A stretch of DNA of 64,000 bases from Alphaproteobacteria bacterium (GTDB lineage: Bacteria; Pseudomonadota; Alphaproteobacteria; WRAU01; Hepatincolaceae). The number at the start of each line of letters is the position of its first letter. The first letter of the stretch is position 1. The position numbers were made by a program, and so were the translations under genes. The stretch is taken from positions 1 to 64,000 of the forward strand of contig WRAU01000007.1 in NCBI GenBank assembly GCA_009780035.1. The letters are read 5' to 3'. Shown here in pieces: positions 6,068-53,023 of this stretch. The notes under the pieces were generated by a model that did no database searches, had not been told where the DNA came from, and saw only the letters and a program-made list of their open reading frames with translations.

Positions 6068-6072
6068 CTTAA

Positions 6073-7503
6073 ATGAGAGTTTTGTTTAAGTTAGGATTAT
6101 TGGGTGTATTTTTATTGCTGGCGGCTTGTTCTTCGCATCATGCAATTCTTGATGGTGAAATAGCAAGGCTGCAAAGCAATACCGTTGCAGAGAAAAACTT
6201 AAAAAAATTGGAAGTGTCAGAATCTTCTAATGACTATTTGCTTTTTATGCAGGAATTAGCGCGAATATATTTTATTACTGACGATGCTTCTAACTCTTTG
6301 CTTTATGGTAAAAAAGCTACGGATTATTATAATATGCTTGATGAGAAAGCTGTTCTTGCTGCCTCTAAGGTTGGCAGCTCTTTGTTGGCTTCAAGTTTCG
6401 GTTCGGATAATAATTTAGATTATACTGGCTCGGATTACGAGCGGGCTTTTGATTATTTTTACAGCAGTCTTAATTATTTAAAAAAAGGCGATATAAATTC
6501 TGCCATGATTGACATTCGGGCTAGCTCTGATATTCAAAAATTAGCAGTTGCTAGGCGTGAAGCTAGAATTGCAGCTGCCCATGAAAAAATTAACTCTAAA
6601 AGCAACTACAATTTATCGGGTGATATAAAAGGCATTATAGATCAAAATGCAAAAATACTATCTGACACACAGAGTAGTTTTTTAAATGCTTATATTTATT
6701 ATATTTCTGGCAATATCCGTGAATTGGCGGGTGATTTAAACGGCGCTTTGGTAGATTATAAACTTGCTCTTAGTGTTAATCCTACCAATCTTTATATTTT
6801 GCAAGATGTTTTGCGGCTGGCAAAAATTATGGATGTATCTTACTACCAAAGTTTAGCCCTCAATAATGTAAAAGAGATTGCTGATTATAAGCAAAAAGCT
6901 ACAGTAATTGTTGTGTATGAGCAAGGCTTTGTTCCAGCTAAGCAAGAGATTCGTGGAACGGTTTGGTTGTTTGACGGATCTTTTTATACTATCGCTTTGC
7001 CGTATTACCCTGAAAGTAAAATAAACCCTGCTAGAGTTATCGTTGATTCCTTCAATGCACGCGGCGAGGTGCAGTCTGCAAAAATGGAAGTGATTGCCGA
7101 TATTTATAAAATGGCTAGAAATGATTTAGCTGAAAATTACCCTTTTATTGTGGCAAGGCAGGTCAGCAGGGTTATTTCTAAAGGAGTTATGCAGTCGGTA
7201 GGAAAGTCGCTGGCAGACGATAAAAATGGCGGCTTAGGGCTTTTGATGTATAGTGCAGGGGCTATGGCTAGTGTTTTAGAAACTGCGGATATAAGATCAT
7301 TTAGAGTTCTTCCGCATTATGTGTTGCTAACGAAAATTAACTCTTTTGATAGTATAAATAAATTAAAGATTTCTGTTGATTCTAATAGAAGCATTGAAAT
7401 AGGAGATATTTCTGTAAAATTGGGAGAGACTGCGATAGTATATGTCGTTGATACTGGTAATTATATATATTATAAAGTAATATATAAATCAAGGAAACAG
7501 TAA
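6073..7503 (+). CDS. COG3014-like lipoprotein with helical repeats
   Basis: A 476-residue lipoprotein with lipobox LLLAACSS. The mature region has alpha-helical, TPR-like segments: YERAFDYFYSSLNYLKKGD around residue 140 and LNGALVDYKLALSVNP near residue 225, followed by a beta-rich C-terminal half. It resembles uncharacterised COG3014 proteins that co-occur with LpoB-like lipoproteins. It follows the LPP20-like gene by five bases. The stop (7501-7503) is inside the left arm of a large inverted repeat. A role as an outer-membrane assembly scaffold is inferred from context only. Confidence 0.65.
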   Translation: MRVLFKLGLLGVFLLLAACSSHHAILDGEIARLQSNTVAEKNLKKLEVSESSNDYLLFMQELARIYFITDDASNSLLYGKKATDYYNMLDEKAVLAASKVGSSLLASSFGSDNNLDYTGSDYERAFDYFYSSLNYLKKGDINSAMIDIRASSDIQKLAVARREARIAAAHEKINSKSNYNLSGDIKGIIDQNAKILSDTQSSFLNAYIYYISGNIRELAGDLNGALVDYKLALSVNPTNLYILQDVLRLAKIMDVSYYQSLALNNVKEIADYKQKATVIVVYEQGFVPAKQEIRGTVWLFDGSFYTIALPYYPESKINPARVIVDSFNARGEVQSAKMEVIADIYKMARNDLAENYPFIVARQVSRVISKGVMQSVGKSLADDKNGGLGLLMYSAGAMASVLETADIRSFRVLPHYVLLTKINSFDSINKLKISVDSNRSIEIGDISVKLGETAIVYVVDTGNYIYYKVIYKSRKQ

Positions 7504-7599
7504 ATTTTTTGAGTTTCTATGTTGTCATGCCGCTGCTTATGTATGTTTAATACACTTCGCAGCAGCATTTCTAATTAACTCTCAAAAGATTAACTGTTT
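7495..7599. repeat. Long hairpin element overlapping the COG3014-like stop codon
   Basis: Outer arms at 7495-7513 and 7581-7599 match at 17 of 19 positions. Inside, ATGCCGCTGC (7527-7536) pairs with GCAGCAGCAT (7559-7568) with one mismatch, and TGTAT (7540-7544) pairs with ATACA (7550-7554). The plan copies the element at 5206-5308 and it too covers the upstream stop codon. It separates the lipoprotein pair from the LpoB-like gene. Confidence 0.8.
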
Positions 7600-7619
7600 A
7601 AAACTAACGGGGAAAAATT

Positions 7620-8189
7620 ATGAGAAAATATCTAAGCATAGCTTTATTATTATTTTTAAGCGCCTGCGGAGGGACATCTTATCAGGCAGTTGATAAAAAT
7701 ACTGCCAGCAGTATGTTTTCAGCAATAGATCAAAAAATGCTGGTGGAAACTCTTGCTAGCAAGCTGGTAAACGATCAAAGTTTTAAGGCTGAATTAGGCG
7801 GTGATAAGCCTACTTTATTAATTGATACTATTAAAAATAAAACCTCAGAGCATATTGATACGGAAAGTATGACTGACACCCTTAAAGTATCTATTGTAAA
7901 AAGCCGTCTGTTTTCTATTATAAATAGAGAAAAAATGGATATTTTAGCGAAAGAAAATGCTATTGCTCAAAGCGGTTTAGCCGATTCGCAAAGAGCAACT
8001 GAGCTTGGCAGATTATGGGGTGCTAAGTATGTAATGTATGGTAATTTTAGTTCAATTGTAAATTTTGTTGGAAGCCAAAAACAAACATACTATAAATTTA
8101 CTTTAATCGTGCAGAATATTGAAACCGGTGAAGAAGTTTGGATAGATGAAGCAGAAATCAATAAAGTTTCAAAAAAAGGCATGTTCTAA
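7620..8189 (+). CDS. LpoB-like lipoprotein (PBP-activator family)
   Basis: A 189-residue lipoprotein with lipobox LFLSACG. The C-terminal half fits the LpoB/YcfM fold: PTLLIDTIKNKTSEHIDTES, then SRLFSIINREKMDILAKE, LWGAKYVMYGNF and IETGEEVWIDE. In E. coli LpoB is an outer-membrane lipoprotein that activates PBP1B, but LpoB-like proteins in such clusters may have other partners. It is placed between the COG3014-like and PEGA genes. The only class A PBP homologue in the window, at 33777, looks catalytically dead, so an LpoB-type activation role should not be assumed. Confidence 0.75.
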   Translation: MRKYLSIALLLFLSACGGTSYQAVDKNTASSMFSAIDQKMLVETLASKLVNDQSFKAELGGDKPTLLIDTIKNKTSEHIDTESMTDTLKVSIVKSRLFSIINREKMDILAKENAIAQSGLADSQRATELGRLWGAKYVMYGNFSSIVNFVGSQKQTYYKFTLIVQNIETGEEVWIDEAEINKVSKKGMF

Positions 8190-8208
8190 GTATTTAAGGG
8201 CATAATCC

Positions 8209-9324
8209 ATGAAAATAGCTAGATTTTTATTAATAGTGTGGCTATGCCCTTTATTTATAGGAAATGCTTTTGCAAATTTATCTTCTGATATTATTTTAGA
8301 GGCAACAGCTAAAGGAAAAAACCAAGAGCAGGCGGTTAATAATGCTTTGTCGCTGCTTTCGCAGCAGGTTTATGTTTCGCTGAAAAACACTACAGTAATT
8401 ACTGAAAATCTGCAAAATGAAGATTTTTCAACAAATATAGAAAATAATACGATTTTAACTTCTAACGGTTATTTTCAAAATATTACAATTGATACAAAAA
8501 AACTATCTAAAAATTCTTACGAGGCTACGGTTAGTTTATCTAGGCAGGCTTTGGCGAATACAATTAACTATCTTTTTATGCAATTGCTGCCTGAAAAAAT
8601 TGAAGATTCCTCTGCTATAAAGCTAAAAGAACAGCTGGATAGAGCTAACTTTTTATTCTCTTTAATTAACTATGCGCAGGTAAATAATGTTGTATTTCAG
8701 CGAAGCGATATAAATTTACAGAAGTATATTGCTGATTTACGAAAAATTATTAATGCCGATTCGCAGCTGCGATTTTTAATTTATCCGCAGGGAACTAATG
8801 CAGAAATTAGTATTGATAAAAAAAATTATAAAGAAACTGAGCGAATCTATCTTGCCCGCAAAAAATATATTTATAAAATTACCTCTCAAGGTTTCAAACC
8901 TGTGGTTGATGAAATTACTTTGCGGCAGGGAGATAATATTACCCTAGATATTCACATGCAAAAGCAGTTGGATAAAGTAATTCCAGTTAGGCTTAAAATT
9001 AGCAATAAAACCTCGCTGGCTGATTCAGTAATTAAAGATGATTTAAAATTTTTAATTTCACAGAATCAAATGCGGATTGTAGAAGATTCGCCAAATTATA
9101 TTGAATTTACACTGCAGCAGCAAATTGCTCCTAGTGTCATAAAAGGCTATAATAACCATATTGTTGAGGTTAGAATCAAAACCTTTATTAATGGAAAAGA
9201 AAGCATAACTCAATTTAGCATTAATAATCTGCTGGAAGATAACCAAAGCAAAATTCCCCCTAGTGTTTTTGTTAAACAAATTAATCCCTACGCACAAAAA
9301 TTCTTTGCAAGATTGTTTGATTAA
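8209..9324 (+). CDS. Periplasmic protein with LPP20/FlgT-like N-domain and PEGA domain
   Basis: A 371-residue exported protein with a signal peptide ending near GNAFA. Residues about 28-125 (ATAKGKNQEQAVNNALSLLS and on) resemble the N-terminal fold of FlgT/LPP20-type proteins. Residues about 190-250 contain a PEGA-type beta domain: FLIYPQGTNAEISIDKKNY, then YIYKITSQGFKPVVDEITL. It lies 19 bases after the LpoB-like gene and closes the envelope cluster. PEGA domains are commonly surface or cell-wall associated. Function is unknown. Confidence 0.65.
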   Translation: MKIARFLLIVWLCPLFIGNAFANLSSDIILEATAKGKNQEQAVNNALSLLSQQVYVSLKNTTVITENLQNEDFSTNIENNTILTSNGYFQNITIDTKKLSKNSYEATVSLSRQALANTINYLFMQLLPEKIEDSSAIKLKEQLDRANFLFSLINYAQVNNVVFQRSDINLQKYIADLRKIINADSQLRFLIYPQGTNAEISIDKKNYKETERIYLARKKYIYKITSQGFKPVVDEITLRQGDNITLDIHMQKQLDKVIPVRLKISNKTSLADSVIKDDLKFLISQNQMRIVEDSPNYIEFTLQQQIAPSVIKGYNNHIVEVRIKTFINGKESITQFSINNLLEDNQSKIPPSVFVKQINPYAQKFFARLFD

Positions 9325-9365: not shown

Positions 9366-10652
9366 ATGAGTATTATTAATAGGTTTTTTAAATTACAAGA
9401 ATCGCAAACTTCAGTGGCTACTGAGTTTAGGGCTGGAATAACAACATTCTTAGCCATGTCTTATATAATTTTTGTGAATCCTTTAATTCTTTCTCATACA
9501 GGAATGGATAAATCGGCACTATTCACTGCTACGGTTTTAGCAATTGTCTTTTCAACATTGCTAATGGGTTTTTTAGGCAAATGGCCTATTGGTTTAGCTC
9601 CAGCTATGGGAGTTAATGCTTGGTTTGCTTTTGGTATAGTTGGGCATATGGGGTATTCATGGCAGCAGGCTTTAGGTTTTGTATTTGCTTCTGGGATTCT
9701 TATGATTATTTTTACACTTTTACCAGTAAGAGAAAGACTTATCAATGCCCTATCAGAATCTCTTAAAATTTCAATTACTGCAGGGTTAGGATTATTTATA
9801 GGGATAATTGGATTTAAAACTGCAGGAATTCTTGTTCCCAACGAGGCAACCTTTGCTAGTTTCGGCAATCTTACATCTATGGGGGTAATTTTAACTGTAT
9901 TAGGGCTAATTATTATTTTTATTTTTGAAAAGAAAAAAATATCTGGAGGGGTTTTAGCTTCTATTGCCACTGTATCAATTATTTCTTTAATTTTAGGGAG
10001 CAGCAGTTTTAGCGGAGTGGTTTCTAAACCAATCAGTATTGCTCCTTTATTCTTAGAATTACAGTTTGCGGATTTGCTATCAGCTAGCAGTTTGCTTATG
10101 ATTACTACTTTGTTTATTGTTTTATTTTTTGATAGCACAGCAACCTTTATTGGAGCATCTACCTCTTTAGTTAAACAAAAAGAAAAGCTGAATTTAACAA
10201 AGCCTCTTTTGGTTGACGGTATTGCTACGACAGTTGGTTCGCTTTTAGGAGTAAGCTCAACTACTGCTTATGTGGAAAGTGCTGCCGGTATTAAAGAAGG
10301 CGGCAGAACTGGTCTTACTGCTATATTTATAGCTTTATTATTTGCCTGCACTTTGTTTTTTTCACCGCTGCTTAGTATAATTCCAAGTTATGCAGCTTCA
10401 GCTGCCATGATTTATATTTCTTACTTAATGTTTTTGCCTTTGAAAAACTTAGCTTGGGATGATCCCACAGAATTATTGCCATGCGTAATTATTTTAAGCA
10501 TTACTACATTGACCTTTTCAATTTTTAATGGAATAGGCTTAGGAATTACATTGTGGATTATTTTAAAGATTCTCTATGGCAAATGGCAAAAAAGTTATTT
10601 ACCAATTATTATAGTGGCATTGTTGTTTATTTTATATATTATGGGACATTAA
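9366..10652 (+). CDS. Purine permease, NCS2/AzgA (PbuG) family
   Basis: A 428-residue inner-membrane carrier for hypoxanthine, guanine or adenine driven by protons. The start, with ATEFRAGITTFLAMSYIIFV, is characteristic of the AzgA-like branch, as are APAMGVNAWFAFGIVG and FFDSTATFIGAST; FGIVG and SSTTAYVESAAGI correspond to the conserved substrate-site segments. A GGGAGGGG site lies a few bases before the ATG. A purine phosphoribosyltransferase follows after 17 bases, so uptake and salvage are paired. Confidence 0.92.
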   Translation: MSIINRFFKLQESQTSVATEFRAGITTFLAMSYIIFVNPLILSHTGMDKSALFTATVLAIVFSTLLMGFLGKWPIGLAPAMGVNAWFAFGIVGHMGYSWQQALGFVFASGILMIIFTLLPVRERLINALSESLKISITAGLGLFIGIIGFKTAGILVPNEATFASFGNLTSMGVILTVLGLIIIFIFEKKKISGGVLASIATVSIISLILGSSSFSGVVSKPISIAPLFLELQFADLLSASSLLMITTLFIVLFFDSTATFIGASTSLVKQKEKLNLTKPLLVDGIATTVGSLLGVSSTTAYVESAAGIKEGGRTGLTAIFIALLFACTLFFSPLLSIIPSYAASAAMIYISYLMFLPLKNLAWDDPTELLPCVIILSITTLTFSIFNGIGLGITLWIILKILYGKWQKSYLPIIIVALLFILYIMGH

Positions 10653-10669
10653 AGGAGTAGTATTTAATT

Positions 10670-11122
10670 ATGTCGGAAAAAATTTATATATCTTGGGAGC
10701 AGTTTTTTAAAGATTCTAAAGAGTTATCCCAAAAGATTAAAGATATGAATCTTGATATTAAAGGAATCGTTTGCATTACAAGAGGCGGGCTTGCGCCTAC
10801 CTCTGTAGTTAGCAGTGAATTAAATATCCGTAAAATTGAAACTTTCAGCATTAAAACTTATTCAGATTCTATGGATAGAGAATCATCTTATGAAATATTA
10901 TCTACACCAATTGAGGCTATTAAAGATAAGGGGTTGGGGTGGATTATTATTGATGAGCTAGTTGATACCGGCAATACAGCGGAATATATTTTAGAACAGC
11001 TGCCGCTGGCAAAATTTTTTGTGCTTTACTCTAAGATTCCTAACCACAAAAGTATTACAAAATATATTCGGGATTTTGATAAAAGCATATGGCTGTGCTT
11101 CCCTTGGGAGCTAGAGGTATGA
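10670..11122 (+). CDS. gpt: Xanthine/guanine phosphoribosyltransferase, Gpt type
   Basis: A 150-residue type I phosphoribosyltransferase that converts xanthine or guanine and PRPP to the nucleotide. The PRPP loop reads IIIDELVDTGNTAE, CITRGGLAPTSVVSSEL gives the flexible N-terminal loop region, and the C-terminus WLCFPWE is the base-recognition end seen in E. coli Gpt. The length matches that enzyme (152). It is directly downstream of the purine permease, and its stop overlaps the next start (ATGA). The exact base preference is inferred from family likeness. Confidence 0.88.
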   Translation: MSEKIYISWEQFFKDSKELSQKIKDMNLDIKGIVCITRGGLAPTSVVSSELNIRKIETFSIKTYSDSMDRESSYEILSTPIEAIKDKGLGWIIIDELVDTGNTAEYILEQLPLAKFFVLYSKIPNHKSITKYIRDFDKSIWLCFPWELEV

Positions 11123-11499
11123 GGCGCAGCTCCTTAATAAAAATTACCAAAATCAGTATTGTGTTTATAGTTATTGCCGTAGTTTCTTTTATTTATTTTT
11201 CGCAAAGAGGAGAAAAAATTGATGAGAAATTGGCAGGAATTATTTGTGCAAAATTAATTAATGACTATGTTGACAGCAATTTTATTATCAAGAAAGTTAG
11301 TTTTAATGAATCTTATAAATTTAATCAAGTAAAAGTAGATTTATCTATTGCATATAATAACGGTAAAGAGACTTCATCTATGTGTTATTACAAAAAAAGA
11401 TATGGAAATTCTACAATATCGCTTATAAAAGCTGACTTGCGAGACTCAAGCGGCAAGTTAAAAACTTTTAGTGATTTAAAAGTAATATATAAAAATTAA
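11119..11499 (+). CDS. Small membrane-anchored protein of unknown function
   Basis: I do not recognise this 126-residue protein. One hydrophobic helix at about residues 8-28 (SIVFIVIAVVSFIYF) follows a basic RRSSLIK start, which suggests an N-in anchor with about 95 residues outside the membrane. The frame is open ten codons upstream, but GGGAG at 11106-11110 and the ATGA overlap with gpt favour 11119. It ends the purine-salvage operon, just before a perfect 13-bp hairpin. Confidence 0.6.
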   Translation: MRRSSLIKITKISIVFIVIAVVSFIYFSQRGEKIDEKLAGIICAKLINDYVDSNFIIKKVSFNESYKFNQVKVDLSIAYNNGKETSSMCYYKKRYGNSTISLIKADLRDSSGKLKTFSDLKVIYKN

Positions 11500-11505
11500 T
11501 TTTGG

Positions 11506-11533
11506 ATTAACATAATTCTTGAATTATGTTAAT
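11506..11533. terminator. Perfect 13-bp hairpin between operons
   Basis: ATTAACATAATTC (11506-11518) and its exact complement (11521-11533) are separated by two bases. It starts seven bases after the small membrane protein and lies before the stator operon. There is no run of T after it, so it may be a terminator, a processing site or an operator; the sequence alone does not decide. Confidence 0.5.
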
Positions 11534-11623
11534 AATTATTATATATTAACAGTAGGTGTGTTTTATTTTCCATTGCATCTACATTGAAATTTAGTTAAAT
11601 ACTAGGAATAATGAGATAAGAGT

Positions 11624-14600
11624 ATGTCTTTAAAAGTAAATTTTTTCCCGCTACACTTTATAGTATCTATTTTAGGATTAGTGGTTTTTTCAATAGTTTT
11701 TAGCGATACCATTTATTCGTATATGGCTGAAAATATAACCCTAAATGGTGCGATAATCGCCTTGTTCGTATTCTGTATGATATGGATATTTGGTTGTTTA
11801 TCTTATTATGCCCGTAGTGTTAAATTAATTAATAATTTATTTAACTCGGCAATACCGCAAAGTGTTGAGGGTGAAGAAGGTGCTCAGCCTGGTAGTCAAT
11901 CTATGTATATAGCTTCAAGTATATCTGGAACACTTATAGACAACCCAGTAGCTTCTAGGGTTTTATCTAATTTTGCTAAAACGGGCAAACTAGACATCAA
12001 TTACTCAGATGCAATGATTATCGTGCAAGCGGTAGATGAAAACGGCGACAGAATTATGGGTCCTGCTAAATTCTTAGGCGGGGTGTTTATATTATTAGGT
12101 CTTTTTGGAACATTTATCGGGCTACTACATACAATTGACGGTGTGGGAACGGCGTTGAAATCAGTGTCCGATGCAGATAATGTGGATGTGTTCGGTCTTG
12201 TAGGGCTTCTAGTAGAGCCTCTTCAAGGTATGGGTATGGCGTTCTCAGCTTCATTATTTGGTCTTACTGCAGGTCTTTTTGCTAACTATGGAATTTTCGT
12301 AGCCCATCATCAGTTGGCTGTTTTTATAAATAAATTAAAAAATTTCCTTACGGCTACAACTGGAATTTCTCAAGTAGATCCTTCTGAAATTAAAGCTGAA
12401 GATATTCTTTTAGCATTAGAAGATTCGTTCAACAAATTAAGTGTGGTTTTTGCTGAAAAGTTAGATATGGTAACTGAAGGTTTGTTGGCTATGTCTAAGG
12501 TTATTGCTAGAGGGCAAGATAGGCAGGAAAAGCTGTCAAAAGCATCGCTTATAAATTTAGTTAAAGTGGCTGAATTGGCTGAAAAATTAAATATATTAGA
12601 ATCTTTAGATGATAATGTTAGACAGGGATTAGAAGAAAACAGAATCGAGTTGTTTAAATATTTAGATTCGAAAGTGGTTGCTAGTTTTAATCAAGTATTA
12701 GATACTTTAGAATTAAACAATAGAATCTCTATAGATCATGTTGAGCTTTCAGAAAAAACATCAGTAGTAATAGAAGATTTAGCCGGTATGATGGAAAATC
12801 TTCTTGATTTAACTGAAGCTGGAAATGATGTTGTTTCTGAAAAATCTGATGTTATTAATGGCTCTTTAAGAGCAAATGGTGTAATTTTAAATGACTTGTT
12901 AGAATCTTCAGACGAATCTTTATCGGTTTTAGAATCTATTGATGGTAAAACTACCGGCATTGATTACAGACCAAACTTCGATGAAGTTGTTGATGCTGTT
13001 AATGAGAATAACGATTTAACAAGCGAATCTAATGCTTTATCAGATGAAGCTAATAACTTGGCTGATACTTTAATAAATAAAGTTGCTACTGAAGATAGTT
13101 TGCTTGCAACGATAGATTCAGTTGAAGATGCAACTGCTGCTATTGATGACACTATTAATGAATTAGAAACTCAAAGAGAGATTTTAAATGATACTTTAGA
13201 TTCTCTTAATGATATTGGTGATTCTATAGATGATAATTTAGAAAAAATTATTGAAAGCAATGATGGAATCTTGGCTGAGGTAGTTGATGCTAATTCTTTA
13301 AACAATGATATTCTTAGCGAAGCTACAAGAAACAATGAATTGAATGAAGATATTTTAGCTACAGCTAATGATAATTTAGATACCAACAGAGATATTTTAG
13401 ATGTTGCTTATAATGATTTAGATAACGACAGAGATATTTTAGATACGCTAAGAGACGGCTTAGATACTAACAGAGATACTTTAGATATGCTAAGAGATAC
13501 CTTAGATACTAATAGAGGCATCTTAGATACGCTTTATACTGTAGATTCTACATTGTCAGAACAAGCCTCATCTCTTTATAATTTAGAGCGTTATTCAGAT
13601 TCTATGTTGAATAATCTTGAAAGCATTTATTCATCATCTATTGAGCTGAATAATAGAGTTGGTGAAATGACTGACGGGTTCTCTACTTATCTGCCGATAA
13701 TGACTGATATTATGGGTGTAGTTAGAGATGAAATGAATGGTTTAAGCTCAACTGTAGAAATGTTAGGAAACAGCATTTATGATATGTCGCAAAATTTATC
13801 ACAGCATGGCGATGCTATTGGTAGATTAGGTGAAATTGTTTACTTGTTAGATTCAAGAATGGAAAGTTTAGACAATGCTACATCAAGTCTTAATAACTCA
13901 TTGCAGCAAACATTGCCAGCCATGTATGAAGCTATAGATATTTCTTCAACTAATTCGCAGTATCTTGCTCAATTGATTGGAACAATGGACTATATTGCTC
14001 AAGTATCTGAGGGCATAGGCAGAAGTATGGCTGATTTTGCTAATCAAGTATTGCAGGAAAATGCTTATATTGCTGATCAAGTTCAAAATGTATCATCAGT
14101 AGTTATGGATTCGATTGACAAAATGTCAAATACAGTGATGGATTCTACAAATCAAATTAGCAATTCTTTAGCAGAAACTTCTTATTCATTGATGGATACT
14201 TCTAATACTATAAATGGCGCTGCTAATACGGTAATGGATGCTGCTAATTTAATATCGCAAGCTGTTGAACAAAGCACTTTAATATCTAATGATAGCTCAA
14301 TGGCAGCGCAAACAATGCTATCAGTTGTTGATGAATTCTCACAATTAAGAGACTTATATTCTTCTCAAATGACTGATGTATCGCAATTGCTTTCAGATAC
14401 TATGTCTTCGGTTATGGCAGCAACTGATTATGTTTCTAATAATTTAATAAATTTAAATGATTTAGTTGCAACTGTGCAGGGTTATTCAAATGATGTTATG
14501 AATACTCAAGAAACAATTAGAGAATCTATGCAAGGAATGATGGGTGTTAGTGAGTATATGGCTAACTCTCAAGATAACTTCTTAAATGCGCTAAGCGGAA

Positions 14601-16123
14601 ATATGAATCAAATGGCATCAATAATTAGTGATGGCGTGAATTATACGGCTTCGTTATTAACAGGTGCTATGGATTCTTTATCTAATAATATTAATTATAC
14701 TGCCTCAATTTTAGCAGGCGGCATGGATAATGTAGTTGAAAGATTAAATAATATTAATATGCTTACAGAAGTTCAAACGGCTAAACTAGATAATTTAGAT
14801 TATAGATTAAGCGAACTTCCAGATACAGTGACAAGTATGTTTATGAACTTAGGTGATATGTTTAGCAATATGTCAAACTATCTTGGCAGCACTGTAGATA
14901 ATATGCAAAATCTAGTTTATGAGATTATGTCGCAAAATTCAGCTGCGCAGTCGGCTATTATGGAAGCAATTGTTGATAATAGAAGCGCTAATGCTATGGT
15001 TATGGACATGGTTAATCAAACCACTGGATTGCAATCTGTAATTGCTGATCTTGCCAGCCAGTCTAATTATGCTAATTCTATGGTAGATAATTTGGCATCG
15101 CAAACATCTATGCTGCAATCTACTATGGATATGCTGGCTAATAATTTTGCAAATCAAACTGATTCACTGCAATCATCTATGGGTGTATTAGCAGATACTT
15201 TCTCTGGAATTTATTCTGGTGTAATGGATACAACGCAAACAATGGCAGCTACATCTAATTCATTGTTCTCAATTTCTAATGAGTTAGCAACACAAACTGA
15301 TGCTTTGGAAAGAAACAGTGTGATGGCTTCTAATTTAAGCAACGATCTTCAGAGTTTAGCTTTCTCTAATGAAAATTTAAGAGATGTAGGCGGTATGCTA
15401 TCTAATGTAATAAACTCTTTTGATACATTAGCTAATGTATTATCAACAGTGCAGGTTTCTGCTGATAATATGGATAGAACTTTTGCTAATTATTCCGATA
15501 TGCTGTTTGGTGAAGTTTCTAGGCTGACTGAAACCCTAAATGCCCATTTAAGTAATTTTATGTCTAAAGACCTTACATTGGGACAAGATATATATAATAT
15601 TATGAATGGTCTTTCTATGGCAACCAATGATATTTCTAGCGCTATAAACACTTTTGAAAATCTAGCAAGCAATTCTATTGTTGCTAACAGTAATGTTCAA
15701 GCACAGATAGAAAGCTCTATGAATTATGCAATTAATGAGATTGCTTCTATTAAGGAAAATTTAGGCAATAATATTTCTGAAAGAATTATTTACGAAATTT
15801 CTCAAGTGTCAAATAATCAGCAAGAAATGATGAATAGATTAGGTATGGTTATGCCGCAGATTAATGACTTAATTAATATCCTAAGCTCAAATGGTGGTGG
15901 TTATGGTCAGAATATGATGGGTATGAATAATCCTAATGCTAATAATGGTGATCTTCTTAATGCTTTAATGACTTTAAGAGAAGAGCATCAAAATGGCAAC
16001 GCTAGATTAGACATCATGGCAAATGCTGTAGATACTTTGATTACTGAAATATTAAATTCTAGGGATGTTGCTGAAACAATACTTGATGTTGTTACTAGAA
16101 TGGCAGGATTAACTCCAAGATAA
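11624..16123 (+). CDS. Giant MotA/TolQ-like proton-channel protein with ~1,270-residue tail
   Basis: A 1,499-residue protein. Four membrane helices lie at about residues 9-28, 40-60, 149-168 and 201-226. The last pair fits the MotA/TolQ/ExbB channel core: FLGGVFILLGLFGTFIGLL, then GMGMAFSASLFGLTAGLFAN. After helix 4 comes a tail with heptad-like spacing, rich in Asn, Ser, Asp and Met, with many LxxxMxxxxN segments, so probably cytoplasmic coiled coil. Four 14-residue repeats lie at residues 583-638. Family MotA proteins are near 300 residues. A possible promoter (TTGCAT 11573, TAAATA 11596, 17-base gap) precedes it. The MotB-like partner follows after 33 bases. Function of the tail is unknown. 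Confidence 0.85.
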   Translation: MSLKVNFFPLHFIVSILGLVVFSIVFSDTIYSYMAENITLNGAIIALFVFCMIWIFGCLSYYARSVKLINNLFNSAIPQSVEGEEGAQPGSQSMYIASSISGTLIDNPVASRVLSNFAKTGKLDINYSDAMIIVQAVDENGDRIMGPAKFLGGVFILLGLFGTFIGLLHTIDGVGTALKSVSDADNVDVFGLVGLLVEPLQGMGMAFSASLFGLTAGLFANYGIFVAHHQLAVFINKLKNFLTATTGISQVDPSEIKAEDILLALEDSFNKLSVVFAEKLDMVTEGLLAMSKVIARGQDRQEKLSKASLINLVKVAELAEKLNILESLDDNVRQGLEENRIELFKYLDSKVVASFNQVLDTLELNNRISIDHVELSEKTSVVIEDLAGMMENLLDLTEAGNDVVSEKSDVINGSLRANGVILNDLLESSDESLSVLESIDGKTTGIDYRPNFDEVVDAVNENNDLTSESNALSDEANNLADTLINKVATEDSLLATIDSVEDATAAIDDTINELETQREILNDTLDSLNDIGDSIDDNLEKIIESNDGILAEVVDANSLNNDILSEATRNNELNEDILATANDNLDTNRDILDVAYNDLDNDRDILDTLRDGLDTNRDTLDMLRDTLDTNRGILDTLYTVDSTLSEQASSLYNLERYSDSMLNNLESIYSSSIELNNRVGEMTDGFSTYLPIMTDIMGVVRDEMNGLSSTVEMLGNSIYDMSQNLSQHGDAIGRLGEIVYLLDSRMESLDNATSSLNNSLQQTLPAMYEAIDISSTNSQYLAQLIGTMDYIAQVSEGIGRSMADFANQVLQENAYIADQVQNVSSVVMDSIDKMSNTVMDSTNQISNSLAETSYSLMDTSNTINGAANTVMDAANLISQAVEQSTLISNDSSMAAQTMLSVVDEFSQLRDLYSSQMTDVSQLLSDTMSSVMAATDYVSNNLINLNDLVATVQGYSNDVMNTQETIRESMQGMMGVSEYMANSQDNFLNALSGNMNQMASIISDGVNYTASLLTGAMDSLSNNINYTASILAGGMDNVVERLNNINMLTEVQTAKLDNLDYRLSELPDTVTSMFMNLGDMFSNMSNYLGSTVDNMQNLVYEIMSQNSAAQSAIMEAIVDNRSANAMVMDMVNQTTGLQSVIADLASQSNYANSMVDNLASQTSMLQSTMDMLANNFANQTDSLQSSMGVLADTFSGIYSGVMDTTQTMAATSNSLFSISNELATQTDALERNSVMASNLSNDLQSLAFSNENLRDVGGMLSNVINSFDTLANVLSTVQVSADNMDRTFANYSDMLFGEVSRLTETLNAHLSNFMSKDLTLGQDIYNIMNGLSMATNDISSAINTFENLASNSIVANSNVQAQIESSMNYAINEIASIKENLGNNISERIIYEISQVSNNQQEMMNRLGMVMPQINDLINILSSNGGGYGQNMMGMNNPNANNGDLLNALMTLREEHQNGNARLDIMANAVDTLITEILNSRDVAETILDVVTRMAGLTPR
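13370..13537 (+). repeat. Four tandem 42-bp (14-residue) repeats inside the stator tail
   Basis: Units start at 13370, 13412, 13454 and 13496, each in frame and encoding a variant of xLDTNRDILDxLRD. The unit length is two heptads, so the repeats extend a coiled coil without changing register. Divergence between units is small, which suggests recent duplication. Confidence 0.85.
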
Positions 16124-16156
16124 TTAAAATATTATAAGGAAATATAAGGAAAAATA

Positions 16157-17254
16157 ATGGCAAAAATGGAACAGGAAGATGTCGGTCAGCAATCATGGCC
16201 GGTATATGCGGATATTCTTTCTTCCACACTTATAGTTTTGGCATTTGCTCTTTTAGTTATGGTGATGGTGGTATCTGTTATGAGAGTAACCTCATCCATA
16301 AGAAATGAAAGCCACGAAACAGCTCCGTCTTCTTATAAGGTGGAATCTGAGGTTTTAGGAGATTACAGAGCAGAGTTTCAAAAATTAGCGATTGTTGCAA
16401 ATCCTAGTATGCGGGAAGAAATGCAGATACAAAGTGATGCGCCTACGGTTGATCAAATGAGCAATAGACCGATTTATGTTCCTAAAGATATTATTGATGT
16501 TGTAGATAAGCCTCAAGAAGTTAAAGCTATAGGAGATTCGGAAAGACAAGTTCTTGGGGATATGCCTAAAGTTGTAGATGTAAATCCGATTGAAGTTTTA
16601 GAAGAATTAATAATCGTGCAAAGAGATGTTATAGAACAGCAAAGAAAGGTTATTGAACAACAAGATGAACAGATTGCACAAACTGTAAGAGAATATCAAA
16701 GTTTATTGGCTCTTGTAACTAATGAAAGAGAAATTGAGGATGTTCGGCAAAAAATTAATCCGCAGCAGGATGTTGCAAGATTTACTCCTTTAGATATGGA
16801 AGGTCAAAGAGTATCTGGAACTACAGAGGCTCCAACTGGACAAGGTTCTTTGTTTTTATCACCGCCGAATAATCCTGTATCAAAAATTTCTGCTGAGGTG
16901 CTGAATGATGCTTTATTCTTTAATTTTAAAGACAATGCTCCTTTCTTAAATCAAGAGAGCAGCCAAGTGGCTACAGACACCATAAGAAATAATATTGATA
17001 AATTCAGTGGATCTAATATAATATTAGAAACAAAGGTTACAGATTTTGCAGTATCGGGAGCTGAAGCTCAAAGAATTGCTGTAGAAAGATTGTTAATTTT
17101 CCGTTCTCTTTTAATTGATGCTGGGGTTTCTCCTTCATTAATTAGATTGAAAACTATAGAGGGTCAGCCGGACGATCCTGCTGCTAGCAATAGTGGTCAA
17201 AGCGGTTCTGCAGAGTTAAATTATGGTTGGGTTGCGATAAAAAGAAATGGTTAG
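16157..17254 (+). CDS. MotB/OmpA-like stator partner
   Basis: A 365-residue inner-membrane protein. After a short cytoplasmic start, WPVYADILSSTLIVLAFALL forms the single helix; YAD matches the MotB position of the ion-carrying aspartate (Asp19 here). A periplasmic coiled-coil region around residues 155-200 (VQRDVIEQQRKVIEQQDEQ) leads to a C-terminal OmpA-like fold: LFFNFKDNAPFL, a VTD in the GHTD place, and VERLLIFRSLLIDAGVSPS. Peptidoglycan-binding residues are only partly recognisable. A strong AAGGA site precedes the start, and the end overlaps the TolC-like gene by eight bases. It should form the stator with the upstream protein. Confidence 0.82.
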   Translation: MAKMEQEDVGQQSWPVYADILSSTLIVLAFALLVMVMVVSVMRVTSSIRNESHETAPSSYKVESEVLGDYRAEFQKLAIVANPSMREEMQIQSDAPTVDQMSNRPIYVPKDIIDVVDKPQEVKAIGDSERQVLGDMPKVVDVNPIEVLEELIIVQRDVIEQQRKVIEQQDEQIAQTVREYQSLLALVTNEREIEDVRQKINPQQDVARFTPLDMEGQRVSGTTEAPTGQGSLFLSPPNNPVSKISAEVLNDALFFNFKDNAPFLNQESSQVATDTIRNNIDKFSGSNIILETKVTDFAVSGAEAQRIAVERLLIFRSLLIDAGVSPSLIRLKTIEGQPDDPAASNSGQSGSAELNYGWVAIKRNG

Positions 17255-18608
17255 AGTTATAAGTTTATTCTTAATTTTATTTGTTAGTATATTTTTTTCT
17301 AAATCAGCTTACAGTTTAACTGTGTATGAAGTGATAGAAAGGGTAGTCAATAACTCTCCAGAATTAAGAGTTATTTTTGAGAAGAAAAATCAAGCTGTAG
17401 CGGGATTTAAAGATCAAAGATCTCAATATCTTCCTCAAATATATACTATTTTCAATAGAGAGTATAATAAAAATGATCCAATAACCTCTACTGCTGATTC
17501 TGCTTGGGAGGCTTATAATAAGCTGCAAGTAATTTTAGAGCAAAGAATTTTTGATGTTGAGCAAATGACAAGAATATTAAGTTCTGCCCAAGCTGTGCAA
17601 TCTCAAGAATTTGAAAATCAAAAACTATTAGAATCTTTAATTCAGTTAGCGGTAATATCTTACTATGATGTTATTCAAAGTGAGTATCTTGTTTCCATTA
17701 ATAAGGAATATTTAAGGCAAGTTAGAGAAATAGAAACTTTAACAACTAATATGAGAAATCAAGGTGATGCTACATTAGGTGATGTTAATTTAGTTCAATC
17801 AAGATTGGCTTCAGCTAACTCTAACTTAATTTTATCTCAAGCAAATTTAGATAAAACTAGATTAAGATTAGCCTATTTATTAAACTTAGTAGATAAAAAT
17901 CAAATTAACTCTTCCGTAGCAGTTTTACCTGAGCTTACTAATAAGGACTTTTATGATTTAGGCGATAAAGTTATCAATATGATTCCTCTTACTGCTGAAG
18001 GTTTAATAAATGAAGTGTTAGCAAATAATATTGATATATTAATAATTCGTTCAAACCTTTGTTTATCTGGTTATGACTTAGAGGTGCAAAAATCAAGATA
18101 TTTACCTGTAGTAAACTTAACTGGTGAGTTAAGAAGTGAAGAAAGCAGAACTGGTTCTGGTTTTACAAGATATGGTAAATTAACTTTTGAAGCAAGATAC
18201 TCTATCTTTGATGGTGGCAGCAGAGAAGCTGGGGTTAAAAAATTCTCAGCAGCTTTAAAAGAATTAGAATATCAGTATGATATTATGGTAAGAGATACCA
18301 GTGATAGATCTTTCTCTACTTTTAACTTGTTGAGATCTTACGAACAACAAAGATTATCAATTTTAAAAGAAATTGAAGCTACAGAAGAAGTTGATAGAAT
18401 TTATAACATTCAGTTCCAATTTGCTAGCCGTAGTTTAATTGATAGATTAGATAACCTTGAAAGACTATCTAATGCTAGAGCTAAATTAGTGCAAACTGAT
18501 TATTCTATCTTATCTTCTCGGTTGCAAGTTTTATTACTAATGGGTAATTTTGTAGAGTTCTTTGGCTTCCAAAACTACTTAGAAACTAATAACTTAAAAT
18601 TATGTTAG
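17247..18608 (+). CDS. TolC-family outer-membrane channel protein
   Basis: A 453-residue exported protein with a signal peptide ending SKSAYS. The body has the two-fold outer-membrane efflux protein pattern: long helices with LTVYEVIERVVNNSPELRV at the start of the mature chain, MRNQGDATLGDVNLVQSRLA in the first repeat, and a second repeat beginning VLANNIDILIIRSNL. TolC proteins form trimeric tunnels across outer membrane and periplasm for type I secretion or efflux. No ABC exporter or membrane-fusion gene is nearby; instead the gene overlaps the MotB-like gene, so the tunnel may work with the stator. Confidence 0.88.
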   Translation: MVRVISLFLILFVSIFFSKSAYSLTVYEVIERVVNNSPELRVIFEKKNQAVAGFKDQRSQYLPQIYTIFNREYNKNDPITSTADSAWEAYNKLQVILEQRIFDVEQMTRILSSAQAVQSQEFENQKLLESLIQLAVISYYDVIQSEYLVSINKEYLRQVREIETLTTNMRNQGDATLGDVNLVQSRLASANSNLILSQANLDKTRLRLAYLLNLVDKNQINSSVAVLPELTNKDFYDLGDKVINMIPLTAEGLINEVLANNIDILIIRSNLCLSGYDLEVQKSRYLPVVNLTGELRSEESRTGSGFTRYGKLTFEARYSIFDGGSREAGVKKFSAALKELEYQYDIMVRDTSDRSFSTFNLLRSYEQQRLSILKEIEATEEVDRIYNIQFQFASRSLIDRLDNLERLSNARAKLVQTDYSILSSRLQVLLLMGNFVEFFGFQNYLETNNLKLC

Positions 18609-18642: not shown

Positions 18643-18673
18643 AAAAGGAGTATAATTATTTTATACTCCTTTT
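18643..18673 (+). terminator. Rho-independent terminator of the stator-TolC operon
   Basis: A perfect 13-base stem, AAAAGGAGTATAA (18643-18655) with its complement (18661-18673), ends in TTTT and lies 34 bases after the TolC-like stop. The A-run on the left makes it able to act in both directions. Confidence 0.85.
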
Positions 18674-19211: not shown

Positions 19212-20687
19212 TTATCCAATAATTTCATTGAGCTTAGCAATAAGCTGTTCTTTTTCGCCGCTGCCATTGGTTTTAAAACGAATTAATGGAATATTATATT
19301 TTTGTAAAATAGAATTTTTTAGAATATCTCTATGATATTGCTTGCTTCCCTTTTTATGATAATCAAAACCATCAACCTCAATAACAATAACTGGCATTTT
19401 ACTAAGTTTATCAAAAATCAGGAAATCTACATGGGTTAAAATATTTTTCGCATAAATTTTCTCATTATCTCCTAGCTTGCTCATATCTCGTAGTAGCATT
19501 TGCAAAGGTACAAAACTAGCAACATCAAATTTGGCGAAATGTTCCTCCTTTAAAACTTCGCCTATTAACGCAAACATTAGATTTTCACTGTCAAAATCAG
19601 AAATTTTCTTTTGATTTCTTAAAAACTCCTGCTTTTTATGATAATAACCCTTATATAAATAATCAAAAACCGAATAAACTTCACTTTTAATAATTTCTAA
19701 ATTATTATATTTAATATAATTCTCTAAATCGCCGATATTAGTATCCACAGCTTCATCATCACTTACAACCACTATAAGTTGATTAATTGCCCGAGAAACT
19801 GCCACATTCAAGCGATTAGCATTATCAGCAAATGCAGAAATTTTATTATCTACCGTGCTTAAAATCACCACTTCTTTTTCACGCCCTTGAAATTTATCTA
19901 CCGTATCGGCTTGAAACTTTGTATCGGCAAAGGCAGTCTGCAGGGCATTTGTTTGTTTCCTATAAGGGCTAACAATTCCCACATCGCAATTCTCAAGCCT
20001 TTGCTGCGAAATAACCTCATGTTTTATAACATCAATCTGCCTTTGGTTAATATGATTTCTATCATGATTTCCGGATACGGTTTTATAAAGTATAAGCGGC
20101 TGTTCTTTATTATTTTCGCTTAAAATAATCAGCTGATTGTTATAAAACTTTTGATTGCAAAATTCTATTATTTTAGGGTGGCAGCGATAATGCTCCCTTA
20201 GTAAGACTTTAGGTGCTTGCGGGAATAACTCACTACAACTCAACAAAATACTATGATTGTTATAACGATATATTTCAGCTACATTAAATTTATTCCATAT
20301 TATATCAGTAGATTTCGCAGTTTTAGGCTCAACCACATTGGGCAACTGCTTTAGGTCGCCAACCACCACAATGTTTTTGGCACAATACATTGCTAGGCTG
20401 CCGGTGGCAATATCTACCTGCGAGGCTTCATCAATAATTACATAATCATACAGTGTATTTTTAGATAAGCTGCTGATAAGCGAATAGGTGGTGGATAAAA
20501 TTACAGGGTAATATTTTAAGAATTTATAAGAATTTTTCCATAAATCTTCACTTGTAAAGCTAGTTTTAGTTAAATTTTTATATTTTTGCGATAAATTATT
20601 ATGGAATAATTTTAAAGATAAACTTGAGGATTCCTTCATTTTAGCATTAAAATTAAAATCCTCAAGCTCGTTTTCTGTTGCTTGCAA
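19212..20687 (-). pseudogene. UPF1/DNA2-like SF1 helicase, C-terminal half with DUF2726-like nuclease (frameshifted)
   Basis: This 491-codon frame holds the second half of a superfamily 1 helicase: Walker B IIDEASQVD, VVGDLKQLPNVV, LREHYRCHPKIIEFCN, and the last helicase motifs VDKFQGREKEVVILS and RLNVAVSRA. A C-terminal domain (about residues 365-491) has HVDFLIFDK, VIVIEVDGFDYH, RDILKNSILQKYNIPLIRFK, like DUF2726 nuclease-fold domains. The TTG at its edge is not a true start: the frame stays open upstream as YYITKINELSKLL, the natural continuation of the N-terminal half at 20696. One base missing in an A-run near 20728 would explain the break. Confidence 0.8.
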
Positions 20688-20695: not shown

Positions 20696-21751
20696 TTAGC
20701 TCATTAATTTTTGTGATGTAGTAGCTTTTTGGCAGAGTTTAATCATAATTTCTGGAGCAAGTTTATAAAATTCTTTAGTTTTAACTCCAAAGCGAAAGTA
20801 GTTAATCATTCTTGTAAAAAAATTTGGTTTTTTGTTATTACGAAGATATTTTTCGCATAAAAACCATAATTCCATAGATTTACTAGAGTTTATAGGCTTT
20901 AAGCATACAGATACAAAATTATCACTATATTGGCAGTATTCATTAAAATGCTGATATTCTAAATTAACTCCCGCTATTTCTTGCTTTAAGCTAGATAATT
21001 CATTTTTTTTAGCAAGCATAATTTCTAATTGCTGAGAAAGGCTAATTAAAGATTGCTTGGTTTTAATTTCTTCTAAGGGATTAATCTCCCAAGCCAACAA
21101 ATTAGGCAAAGGCTTTTGTTCTTCTATAAATTTTTGCTTGTTCTCGCTACTGCCAAGGTTAGCAGAAATAAAATCTACATGATATTTTTTTAATTTTTCA
21201 AACACATTCATAGTGGCAGAATTGTTGTTAGAAACTACAGCAACAGTTTTGCCCTGCATTACTAAGTTGGCGATAATATTTAAAATTGTTTGAGTTTTGC
21301 CGGTGCCAGGAGGACCTTCAATAATGCTGAAAGGGTTAGTCAGAGCGTTATCAATCGCTTTTTTCTGCGATAAATTAAAACCAAAGGGATAAATTGTAAA
21401 AGATGGGGGGTATGGCTTATTTTCAGGAAACCTTCCACTTAAAAAAGCAGCAAGAATAGTGTTTTTATTAATAAAATCAATTTTTTCATAATGATTTTGT
21501 AGAATGTTTTGGTCGCCATTTTTAATGCCAATTTCGTATGCGATACTTTTAAGATAGTTAAAGCAATTGCTGGAAGTACTTTCATTTAAAATAGAATGAA
21601 TAATTTCAACATTGCCGGCATTGTATGAAAAAGTTCTACCATCATTAAAGGTAATGCTGACTTTGTTGTCTTTTAAGTGGTAAGACTTAATATCGGCAGT
21701 CCTATCCTTGCCTTTAATGATGATTTTACTTTTTTGTTGGTATTCATTCAT
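20696..21751 (-). pseudogene. UPF1/DNA2-like SF1 helicase, N-terminal half (frameshifted)
   Basis: The first half of the same helicase, 351 codons. It carries PFGFNLSQKKAIDNAL (Q motif region) and Walker A IIEGPPGTGKTQTILNIIANL, then a helical insert, and stops at LMS just past LCQKATTSQ. The Walker B and later motifs are in the other frame downstream. I place the start at the ATG 21751, preceded by GAGG at a six-base gap, rather than the upstream TTG. Restoring one A in the CAAAAAG tract near 20728 would fuse both halves into a protein of about 850 residues. Loss of function, a programmed shift, or a sequencing error all fit. Confidence 0.8.
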
Positions 21752-21822
21752 CTTTTGCCTCAATTACTACTATAAATTAGCATAAGCAAGGCAAAAAGTC
21801 TATTATAAGAGCTAAGCTACAG

Positions 21823-22451: not shown

Positions 22452-25061
22452 ATGAATTGGCATGAGAAAAGTAAAGAAGATGTTCTTAAGGAGTTAGATT
22501 CTAATATTGATAACGGGTTATCCTTAGCTAGTGTTGAAAAATTACAGCAGAAGCATGGGAAAAACGAGTTTGCAGAACCTCCGGCAGAGAGTATTTTTTC
22601 TATGATAGTGCGGCACATGAAAGACCTTGCCACTATAATATTATGTATAGCTGCTTTTATATCATTGTTGATGGTAATCTTTCAAGGCGATGATATTTAT
22701 AAATTTATTGCAATTACTGGAATAATTATTTTAAATCTCACCCTAGCTATCACTCAAGAAAGGGGAGCTGAAAGGTCGCTCGCTGCACTTAAAAAACTTA
22801 GCAGTCCTACCAATATTGTTTTGCGTGAGGGCAAACGGCAAGAAATTCCCTCTACTGAATTAGTAGTAGGAGATATTATATTCTTGAAGACTGGCGATAT
22901 GATATCAGCAGACGCAAGATTGCTGGAAAGCACTAATCTTATGGTAGACGAAGCAGCCCTTACCGGCGAGAGCGTTTCTTCAGAAAAAGACTCTAATCTT
23001 ATATTGCCTGAACAAACAGTCGTAGGCGATCAAAAAAACATGGTATTTGCTGGTTGCCTTGTGGTGGCTGGGCATGCTAAAGCGATTGTTGTTGCTACAG
23101 CCATGAAAACTCAAGTGGGTATTATTGCCGGCTATTTAAACAGCACAGTAAAACTACAAACTCCACTGCAAATAAGAATTAATAAATTAGGTAAAATTAT
23201 AAGTATTGTAGCAATTCTTTCTGCTATCTTGTTGTTAATATCTGGTTTGCTTAGAGGTTGGGATCTTTTAGAACTAGCTTTGCTGGCAATTGCCCTATGT
23301 GTGGCAGCTGTGCCAGAAACTTTGCCTTTAATTGTAACCCTAACCTTAGCCCATGGCGTAAAGGAAATGGTTAAAAAGCATGCCCTTATAAGAAAATTGC
23401 AAGCAGTAGAAACATTAGGCAGCACCTCAATAATTTGTTCCGATAAAACTGGCACGCTTACCCAAAATCGTATGGCGGTTAAAAAATTATGGGCTGGTGA
23501 TGGCGATCCTTTTAGCGATGAAGATAATTTTTCGGCAGCCCAATTAGACCTATTAAGTAAGTTTGCTTTTGCCACAAATGCGACGATGGAAACTAACTCC
23601 AATGGTGAAGTTGTGGTAATCGGCTCGCCTACGGAATCGGCAATTATGAATTTATTAATTGCTAAGGGAATTGATAAAAAAGCAGCAGAAAAAAACTTTC
23701 CAAGGGTTGAAGAAATTCCATTTTCTTCAGAACGCAAAATGGCAACTTTTATCCAGAAAGACCCTGAAGGCGGCTATAGAGTATTAACTCTTGGGGCTTA
23801 TGATAGAGTTCCGTTTAAAAATACCTCTGTTGAGCGGGATAAAATGCACGATAATTTTGCTGAAAATGCTTTGCGGATATTAGCTCTTGGCAGCAAGCAT
23901 ATAGCTGAAATTCCAACTAATTTAAGCGATGTAGAGCGTGAGCTAGAATTTGAAGGCATACTTGGAATTATAGATCCGCCGCGTCCAGAGGCTATAACCA
24001 GCGTGGCAATTGCTAAAGCGGCAGGCGTGCGGACAGTAATGATCACGGGAGACCATGCCATTACTGCCAAAGCCATTGCTAAGCAAGTCGGCATATTAAA
24101 TGATGGCGACAAGGTTATAACAGGAGTAGAGTTAGCTCAAAAAAGCCAAGAAGAACTTGAGGCAGCGGTTAAAGACTATTCTGTTTATGCTAGGGTTTCT
24201 CCGGAGGATAAAATCCGTATAGTTAAGGCTTGGCAATCGCATAATGAAGTTGTGGCTATGACCGGTGATGGTGTTAATGATGCTCCTGCATTAAAAAGAG
24301 CTGATGTTGGTGTGGCAATGGGTATAACAGGCACAGAAGTTTCTAAAAGTGCATCTGATATGGTTTTAACCGATGATAATTTTGCTTCAATTGTTGACGC
24401 TATTAAATACGGGCGGAATGTTTTTGCCAATATCCAGAAAACTGTCTATTTTCTTTTAACCTGTAATTTCTCTGAAATTATCTTAATATTAGGTGCAGGC
24501 ATGATGGGTTGGGGCATTCCTTTAACGCCTATTATGATATTATTTATTAATGTGCTAGCCGATGGTGTGCCGGGCATGGCTTTGGCTCTTGAAAAACCAG
24601 CCCCAGAAATAATGCAGCGGAAGCCTGTGGGCAGAAAAGAAAGTATATTCAATGGCTATAAATTTGTAATAACTATGCAAACTATGGCATTCGTAGCAGT
24701 TGGCTGGGTTGCTTATTATATTGGAAAATTTATTCCATTAGACAACTATATTATGCCATCGCACGAATTAGGGCAAACTTTGGCATTTATTGTAATAGGC
24801 TGGACTTCTATTTTTCATATATTTACTGTCCGCAGCCGCTACTCTATTATTAAAAGCAATATAGGAGATAATCCATTATTAGCGTATCTTGCTTTATTGA
24901 TGACCATGTCTTTTATACCAATTGCTTTAATACCGCAGGTGGGTGCAATATTTGATGTGGTTCCAATAAATACTAATCATTGGCTGGTGATAGCAGGGCT
25001 TTCAATTATTCCTACCATAATAGCTGAAATTCATAAGTTTATTACAAAGGAAAGAGTGTAA
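22452..25061 (+). CDS. P-type cation-transporting ATPase, calcium-pump-like (type II)
   Basis: An 869-residue membrane pump. Order: N-terminal cation ATPase domain, actuator with TGESVSSEK, helix 4 motif AAVPETLP, phosphorylation site DKTGTLT (Asp331), KMATFIQKD in the nucleotide domain, TGDHAITAKAIA, MTGDGVNDAPALKRADVG, and helix 6 NVLADGVPG. These fit type IIA/IIB pumps that export Ca2+ (or Na+/Mn2+). Helix 6 has NxxAD rather than the NxxTD of well-studied Ca2+ pumps, so the ion is uncertain. Length is normal and no neighbour shares its operon. Confidence 0.9.
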   Translation: MNWHEKSKEDVLKELDSNIDNGLSLASVEKLQQKHGKNEFAEPPAESIFSMIVRHMKDLATIILCIAAFISLLMVIFQGDDIYKFIAITGIIILNLTLAITQERGAERSLAALKKLSSPTNIVLREGKRQEIPSTELVVGDIIFLKTGDMISADARLLESTNLMVDEAALTGESVSSEKDSNLILPEQTVVGDQKNMVFAGCLVVAGHAKAIVVATAMKTQVGIIAGYLNSTVKLQTPLQIRINKLGKIISIVAILSAILLLISGLLRGWDLLELALLAIALCVAAVPETLPLIVTLTLAHGVKEMVKKHALIRKLQAVETLGSTSIICSDKTGTLTQNRMAVKKLWAGDGDPFSDEDNFSAAQLDLLSKFAFATNATMETNSNGEVVVIGSPTESAIMNLLIAKGIDKKAAEKNFPRVEEIPFSSERKMATFIQKDPEGGYRVLTLGAYDRVPFKNTSVERDKMHDNFAENALRILALGSKHIAEIPTNLSDVERELEFEGILGIIDPPRPEAITSVAIAKAAGVRTVMITGDHAITAKAIAKQVGILNDGDKVITGVELAQKSQEELEAAVKDYSVYARVSPEDKIRIVKAWQSHNEVVAMTGDGVNDAPALKRADVGVAMGITGTEVSKSASDMVLTDDNFASIVDAIKYGRNVFANIQKTVYFLLTCNFSEIILILGAGMMGWGIPLTPIMILFINVLADGVPGMALALEKPAPEIMQRKPVGRKESIFNGYKFVITMQTMAFVAVGWVAYYIGKFIPLDNYIMPSHELGQTLAFIVIGWTSIFHIFTVRSRYSIIKSNIGDNPLLAYLALLMTMSFIPIALIPQVGAIFDVVPINTNHWLVIAGLSIIPTIIAEIHKFITKERV

Positions 25062-45532: not shown

Positions 45533-45592
45533 AACTTCATAAAGATTTAGCCGTTTTTAAGAAAATTTAATAATTAAGTAGGAATAAAGTAA

Positions 45593-46603: not shown

Positions 46604-46614
46604 TTAAAAGATAA

Positions 46615-48281: not shown

Positions 48282-48287
48282 TAGGGA

Positions 48288-48884: not shown

Positions 48885-49049
48885 AATTTTTTCCTTTAAA
48901 TTTAAAACAGTTAATGTTGATACCTCCAAGGGTGTAAACAACATTAAAAATTATACTCTTTCGTTTCTTTAAAGTCTAGTGTAATTTTTACTTTATTTAA
49001 TTTGAGCATTTGTTAAAATATAAATAAATATGTTGAAAGGAGAAAATAA

Positions 49050-50039: not shown

Positions 50040-50040
50040 A

Positions 50041-51200: not shown

Positions 51201-51221
51201 TAGTATGAAAATTTATGTATG

Positions 51222-52157: not shown

Positions 52158-52163
52158 AAAGTT

Positions 52164-52946: not shown

Positions 52947-52987
52947 AAATATAACTCCATATCCTTTTTGTTACGCTGATGTCCATT

Positions 52988-53017: not shown

Positions 53018-53023
53018 GCTTAG

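Follow-up and report, generated by a model that had tools for sequence, protein, structure and literature searches.

Organisation of the operon

The 64,000-nucleotide stretch analysed here (hereafter the window; positions 1 to 64,000 of contig WRAU01000007.1, assembly GCA_009780035.1, from an alphaproteobacterium of the Hepatincolaceae) encodes a three-gene operon, in which a gene for a MotA/TolQ-like stator subunit with a very long cytoplasmic tail (A) is followed by genes for a MotB-like partner (B) and a TolC-family outer-membrane factor (T). An initial annotation of the window had described three overlapping or abutting genes, the first encoding 1,499 amino acids (aa), and this arrangement was confirmed; all three open reading frames (ORFs) are intact and lie on one strand, with a gap of 33 bp between A and B and an overlap of 8 bp between B and T (Table 1).

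Predicted structures of the three proteins

Profile searches with A gave 10.1 bits against the Pfam family MotA_ExbB, which is below the cut-off of 22.9, and a weak match to ZorA (9e-9), the MotA-like subunit of the Zorya defence system. Membrane helices were predicted within approximately residues 10-66 and 150-222. An alignment-based AlphaFold2 model of residues 1-420 (all structure models were of monomers) contained two helices at approximately residues 10-76, followed by a cytoplasmic part, long helices at residues 127-183 and 189-246, and then a single long helix. Foldseek searches with this model retrieved ExbB, TolQ and ZorA, with probabilities of 0.96-1.00 for most of the top matches and modest template modelling scores (TM-scores). 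Though its Pfam score lies under the cut-off, A is thus predicted to have a membrane fold of the TolQ/ExbB type, and its initial description as a MotA/TolQ-like protein was borne out by the model. Residues T163, P199, G202, A206, F207, S208 and S210 were invariant across 20 homologues.

As the predicted core ends at approximately residue 246, the tail of A, spanning from about residue 258 to 1499, comprises approximately 1,240 residues; the long tail initially described is therefore present, whilst the length of 1,270 residues given for it was slightly too great. The tail has a hydrophobic period of 3.53 residues with a strength of 1.6, far above the 0.42 obtained with shuffled sequence, and for this reason it was read as bearing the mark of a coiled coil. 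Its net charge is about -129, and the part analysed, from residue 301 onward, contains neither cysteine nor tryptophan. Matches of the tail to SpiroCoCo, sigma-1, JetC and prefoldin were dismissed as generic coiled-coil similarity. Alignment of the A proteins of three genera (1,336, 1,499 and 1,528 aa) revealed a three-way identity of 2-8% over most of the length of the shaft, and of 47% over the last 49 residues (1451-1499), on par with that of the membrane core. A variable shaft ending in a conserved tip would be the appearance expected of a rod with a docking site.

The MotB-like assignment of B was likewise upheld: the protein has one transmembrane helix, and Asp19, located in this helix within the motif WPVYADILSS, was invariant in all 20 homologues, as were R311 and R316. 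The C-terminal domain (residues 244-334) was modelled with high confidence and matched the folds of OmpA, MotB and SiiA; of the hits listed, SiiA had the highest target TM-score (6qvp, 0.72-0.73). On the basis of this model the C-terminus of B is an OmpA/SiiA-type peptidoglycan-binding fold, the binding itself being predicted.

The third protein, T, begins with a signal peptide-like N-terminus and matched the Pfam family OEP (PF02321) in two stretches (3.5e-37), in agreement with its initial assignment to the TolC family, and is 71% identical to its counterparts in two other genera. T is not the sole TolC of its genome, as had been considered, since a second is encoded on contig C13 inside a resistance-nodulation-division (RND) pump operon.

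Conservation of the A-B-T triad

The sample of the order consisted of four genomes of a single family, namely the window genome and those designated G001, G002 and G003. The triad was found in identical order in three of these, and was absent from G003 (0.9 Mb, 85% complete). A class-wide search revealed that genome G238 encodes a more distantly related A protein, with genes for B and a TolC behind it, and a search around G238 retrieved the triad from 17 genomes of the families f136, f239, f241 and f242, amongst which its spread is patchy. All loci read in those four families had the order A, B, T, with gaps of -77 to 124 bp, hence the order was the same in each of the 20 loci (three within the order and 17 outside it). 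Furthermore, in all 14 genomes of other families that gave a match to the window TolC, most of which hold other TolCs as well, the best match was the stator-linked TolC. The stator and TolC genes are therefore a conserved unit, and their adjacency by chance, one of two outcomes that would have refuted the initial annotation, was ruled out by the 20 loci and the 14 best matches. The other such outcome, the lack of a MotA/TolQ fold in A, was likewise not observed, given the model described above.

In a tree of A homologues, the three window-type stators, the 17 from the other families and the tailed stators of other Pseudomonadota described below formed one group with moderate support and unresolved internal order. 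Considering synteny and the TolC comparison, rather than A alone, the window stator likely shares an ancestor with the other 17.

Linkage to type I secretion and RTX giants

In G001, the triad is the beginning of a co-directional run encoding A, B, TolC, a giant RTX protein (3,487 aa), a protein designated X (1,356 aa), an ABC protein and HlyD. The ABC protein is of the LssB type, its match to TIGR03375 (7e-184) falling short of the curated cut-off; HlyD exceeded the cut-off of TIGR01843. The window genome encodes the corresponding block, giant-X-ABC-HlyD, on contig C4 (12242-35657), and the same contig carries another giant (3,872 aa, 45564-57182), such that the parts of a type I secretion system (T1SS) are complete in this genome, with the LssB-type ABC protein and HlyD encoded on C4 and T in the window. 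In G002, the X-ABC-HlyD block and the giant are found on contigs C9 and C4. Each stator-bearing genome of the order encodes one full-length LssB exporter, whilst no stator, T, RTX protein or full-length LssB ABC protein was identified in the 85% complete genome of G003. In the other families, 16 of the 17 loci have an ABC/HlyD pair and/or an RTX protein encoded next to the triad, and the seventeenth lies on a contig of 7 kb. An N-terminal module of approximately 90 aa is common to the RTX giants of the order and those of the other families (hhalign 96.6%; hmmsearch 2e-9 to 2e-5). The linkage of the stator and TolC to T1SS genes and RTX giants is thus strong.

These results qualify the initial statement that no exporter or fusion protein accompanies the operon. 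It holds locally, in that no exporter, fusion-protein, flagellar, Tol-Pal or TonB gene was identified among the neighbours examined, but not for the genome as a whole, where the type I exporter, its HlyD and the RTX giants are encoded on contig C4. The TolQ of the window genome was located on contig C10.

In each of the three genomes, the gene for protein X immediately precedes that for the ABC protein. X is rich in coiled coil, with no membrane helix; a Pfam scan of one member returned no match. It might serve as a second substrate, or as a partner that the motor tail meets in the cytoplasm.

Comparison with known systems

The initial annotation had compared A with ZorA alone among known tailed stators, overlooking a near precedent in Salmonella. 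In SPI-4 of that organism, SiiA and SiiB form a MotAB-like proton channel and are encoded next to SiiC (TolC type), SiiD (HlyD) and SiiF (ABC); they control the surface retention and release of the 595 kDa adhesin SiiE, secretion as such being independent of both, and membrane uncoupling reduces the retention of SiiE (PMC12607715, PMC6272769). SiiAB has already been counted among the pentamer-dimer motors (PMC12204202), and how its proton channel governs a giant adhesin exported by ATP is a standing puzzle (PMC12607715). The systems described here resemble this one in that a stator pair is encoded together with a TolC-type channel, HlyD, an ABC exporter and a giant adhesin, and in that, of the structural hits listed for B, the periplasmic domain of SiiA has the top target TM-score. 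They differ in that the MotA-like subunit bears a coiled-coil tail of 200 to 1,240 residues, the substrates are RTX giants with an N-terminal module of their own, the TolC shares an operon with the stator, and the hosts are Alphaproteobacteria. No literature on a link between stators and T1SSs outside Salmonella was found, and the reviews on MotAB relatives and type I secretion that were searched do not mention such a family.

ZorA/ZorB share with A and B the stator fold, an elongated cytoplasmic tail and a peptidoglycan-binding partner. The tail of A is approximately twice that implied by ZorA models of 683-780 aa, in accordance with the initial claim that ZorA tails are shorter; ZorA is also far from A in the tree, and no match to ZorC, ZorD or ZorE was identified among the neighbours examined.

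Homologues of A were found in 251 of 385 genomes of the class, mostly of a short kind (approximately 300-430 aa) with a PRK09039-like partner bearing 'WPGFVDAL'. These alphaproteobacterial pairs have the same core and partner motif and lack the long tail, and no TolC homologue of T was found beside them in the 18 loci examined; a reading of the window A as a member of this class-wide short pair was therefore ruled out. Tailed stators of other Pseudomonadota, which we take to be DUF802-like, resemble the window pair in that they combine an A protein of 700 to >1,000 residues with a MotB-like partner and fall into the same tree clade as A with moderate support, and differ in that the loci examined showed no link to a T1SS or to RTX genes. 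In these loci (L100-L113) the partner carries 'VWAVFGDLMSVLLGAF', and there is usually a third protein of 200-260 aa. Lastly, LssB/LapB-type T1SSs for giant RTX adhesins share the ABC protein, HlyD, TolC and giant RTX substrate, though we know of no stator in the standard form of these systems.

Neighbouring genes

A small gene precedes A in the window, and as G001 and G002 also carry a similar small gene upstream of A, it is possibly part of the A-B-T unit. Further upstream (5486-9324, +) lies a series of genes for LPP20-like, TPR-like, LpoB-like and unknown envelope proteins. The operon had been said to end in a strong terminator, which was overstated, since the AT-rich hairpin downstream of T has a weak T run, and five terminator-like sites were observed around the operon compared with 3.9 expected by chance. 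Beyond it, two adjacent ORFs on the opposite strand (19212-20687 and 20696-21763, -) each encode one part of a superfamily 1 helicase (AAA_11/AAA_12) that ends in a nuclease-like DUF2726 domain, and look like one broken or split gene. A pair of P-type cation ATPase-like genes on opposite strands was recognised by sequence only (22452-25061, +) and by Pfam (27658-30369, -); an ORF of 771 aa (25253-27568, +) had no Pfam match. In three of the loci from other families (L099, at 10261-12693, L132 and L134), a protein of approximately 800 aa with an autotransporter beta-domain is encoded directly before the stator gene.

Table 1. Coordinates of the operon features in the window and of the genes encoding protein X (G000, window genome)
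Feature	Position	Strand	Basis
Gene A, predicted MotA/TolQ-fold tailed stator subunit, 1,499 aa	11624..16123	+	ORF list, AlphaFold2 model, Foldseek
Tail of A, ~1,240 residues, putative coiled coil	12395..16120	+	Periodicity and three-genus alignment
Gene B, MotB-like partner, 365 aa	16157..17254	+	ORF, 20-homologue alignment, model
Gene T, TolC-family outer-membrane factor, 453 aa	17247..18608	+	Pfam OEP, homologue comparison
AT-rich 13-pair hairpin, possible terminator after operon	18643..18673	+	Hairpin scan
Small gene, 136 aa, one transmembrane helix, no Pfam family, upstream of A	11089..11499	+	
Protein X, 2,679 aa	L072/L073 = G000:C4:23928-31967		
Protein X, 1,356 aa	L049 8687-12757		
Protein X, at least 1,073 aa	L075 15243-18464		

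Proposed function and alternative explanations

We consider it probable that A and B are accessory motor parts, and T the outer-membrane channel, of a T1SS for giant RTX adhesin-like proteins, comparable to that served by SiiA/SiiB. T would be the TolC-type exit channel, docking onto an HlyD/ABC pump that is encoded on contig C4 in the window genome. We infer the assembly of A and B, the ion flow, their role in retention or release and the role of the rod as follows. The two proteins would form an inner-membrane stator, A5B2 by homology, which B would anchor to peptidoglycan and which would be driven by ions passing Asp19 of B, so that the proton motive force would serve to govern the giant substrate within the T1SS. 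What is governed would most likely be the choice between retention of the giant at the surface and its release, the role put forward for SiiA/SiiB with respect to SiiE. Five A tails may bundle into a long cytoplasmic rod, a reasonable model given that a rod built from five ZorA tails has been observed in Zorya and is required for its activity (PMC11890865). The conserved tip of such a rod might dock a cytoplasmic partner, be it the ABC protein, the substrate at its unfolded end or protein X with its coiled coils, and the rod would then be the coupling element that passes the state of rotation or pumping to the exporter.

Several observations weigh against this proposal. The triad is not adjacent to T1SS genes in either the window genome or G002, and the TolC encoded on contig C13 exceeds the type_I_sec_TolC cut-off, hence T need not be the T1SS channel and the C13 protein might serve the T1SS too. 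No match of B to SiiA was found at the sequence level, a further difference from the Salmonella pair, in that the B profile retrieved no SiiA from the PDB at E<=1. Moreover, the precedent of SiiAB gives no mechanism, because both proteins are dispensable for secretion itself. We are doubtful of an extended form of the proposal, in which a proton-driven rotary motor is an integral mechanical component of the T1SS, its rod engaging the exporter or the substrate in its unfolded state so as to pull, ratchet or hold RTX giants in the TolC conduit, secretion being powered jointly by ATP and the proton gradient; it is offered tentatively, as rather unlikely.

The same linkage might suggest that the stator drives surface motility or force, with rotation of the rod or of B moving surface RTX adhesins via the T1SS/TolC conduit to produce gliding or an attachment force, given that stators with such a fold are the power source of gliding and of type 9 secretion, and that in 19 of the 20 genomes the motor occurs together with giant or RTX surface proteins or with the exporter for them. 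As simpler, SiiAB-like regulation accounts for this linkage equally, such a role appears improbable; genes specific to gliding were not found, no search aimed at them having been made. The initial annotation had instead favoured a stand-alone trans-envelope machine, in which the stator acts directly on TolC with no ABC exporter or HlyD. Whilst the isolation of the triad in the window and in G002, and the overlap of B and T, would be consistent with such a machine, in G001 the triad runs on into genes for an RTX giant and a T1SS exporter, 16 of the 17 loci from other families have some or all of these genes beside it, and in G003 the stator, T, RTX proteins and LssB exporter are absent together. 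We therefore regard it as very unlikely, and the annotation was not sustained on this point.

A Zorya-like anti-phage motor, in which damage to the envelope would be sensed by the tailed stator and a nuclease activated in response, with TolC having an unrelated role, is scarcely credible. ZorA also has a rod-like tail and its profile matches A, and the helicase halves downstream of the operon match the Mko/Hhe defence models; however, the ZorA matches are weak, a PADLOC scan of proteins in and around the operon returned no match to ZorC, ZorD or ZorE, A is distant from ZorA in the tree, and linkage to T1SS and RTX genes is instead the rule among the loci. Membership of Zorya was rejected on these grounds, as was the helicase as a partner of the operon, since it is beside the operon in neither G001 nor G002.

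Implications

Motors coupled with a T1SS are of a kind known from Salmonella, and what is new here is the long-tailed form. Should the tail of A be one continuous helix, the rod could reach up to approximately 170 nm, and the family offers natural tail-length variants with which the role of a cytoplasmic rod could be probed. The joint occurrence of stator, TolC, exporter and giant RTX protein in a large and conserved alphaproteobacterial family, whose tails range from 200 to 1,240 residues, suggests that the assistance of type I secretion by a motor may be a wider principle.
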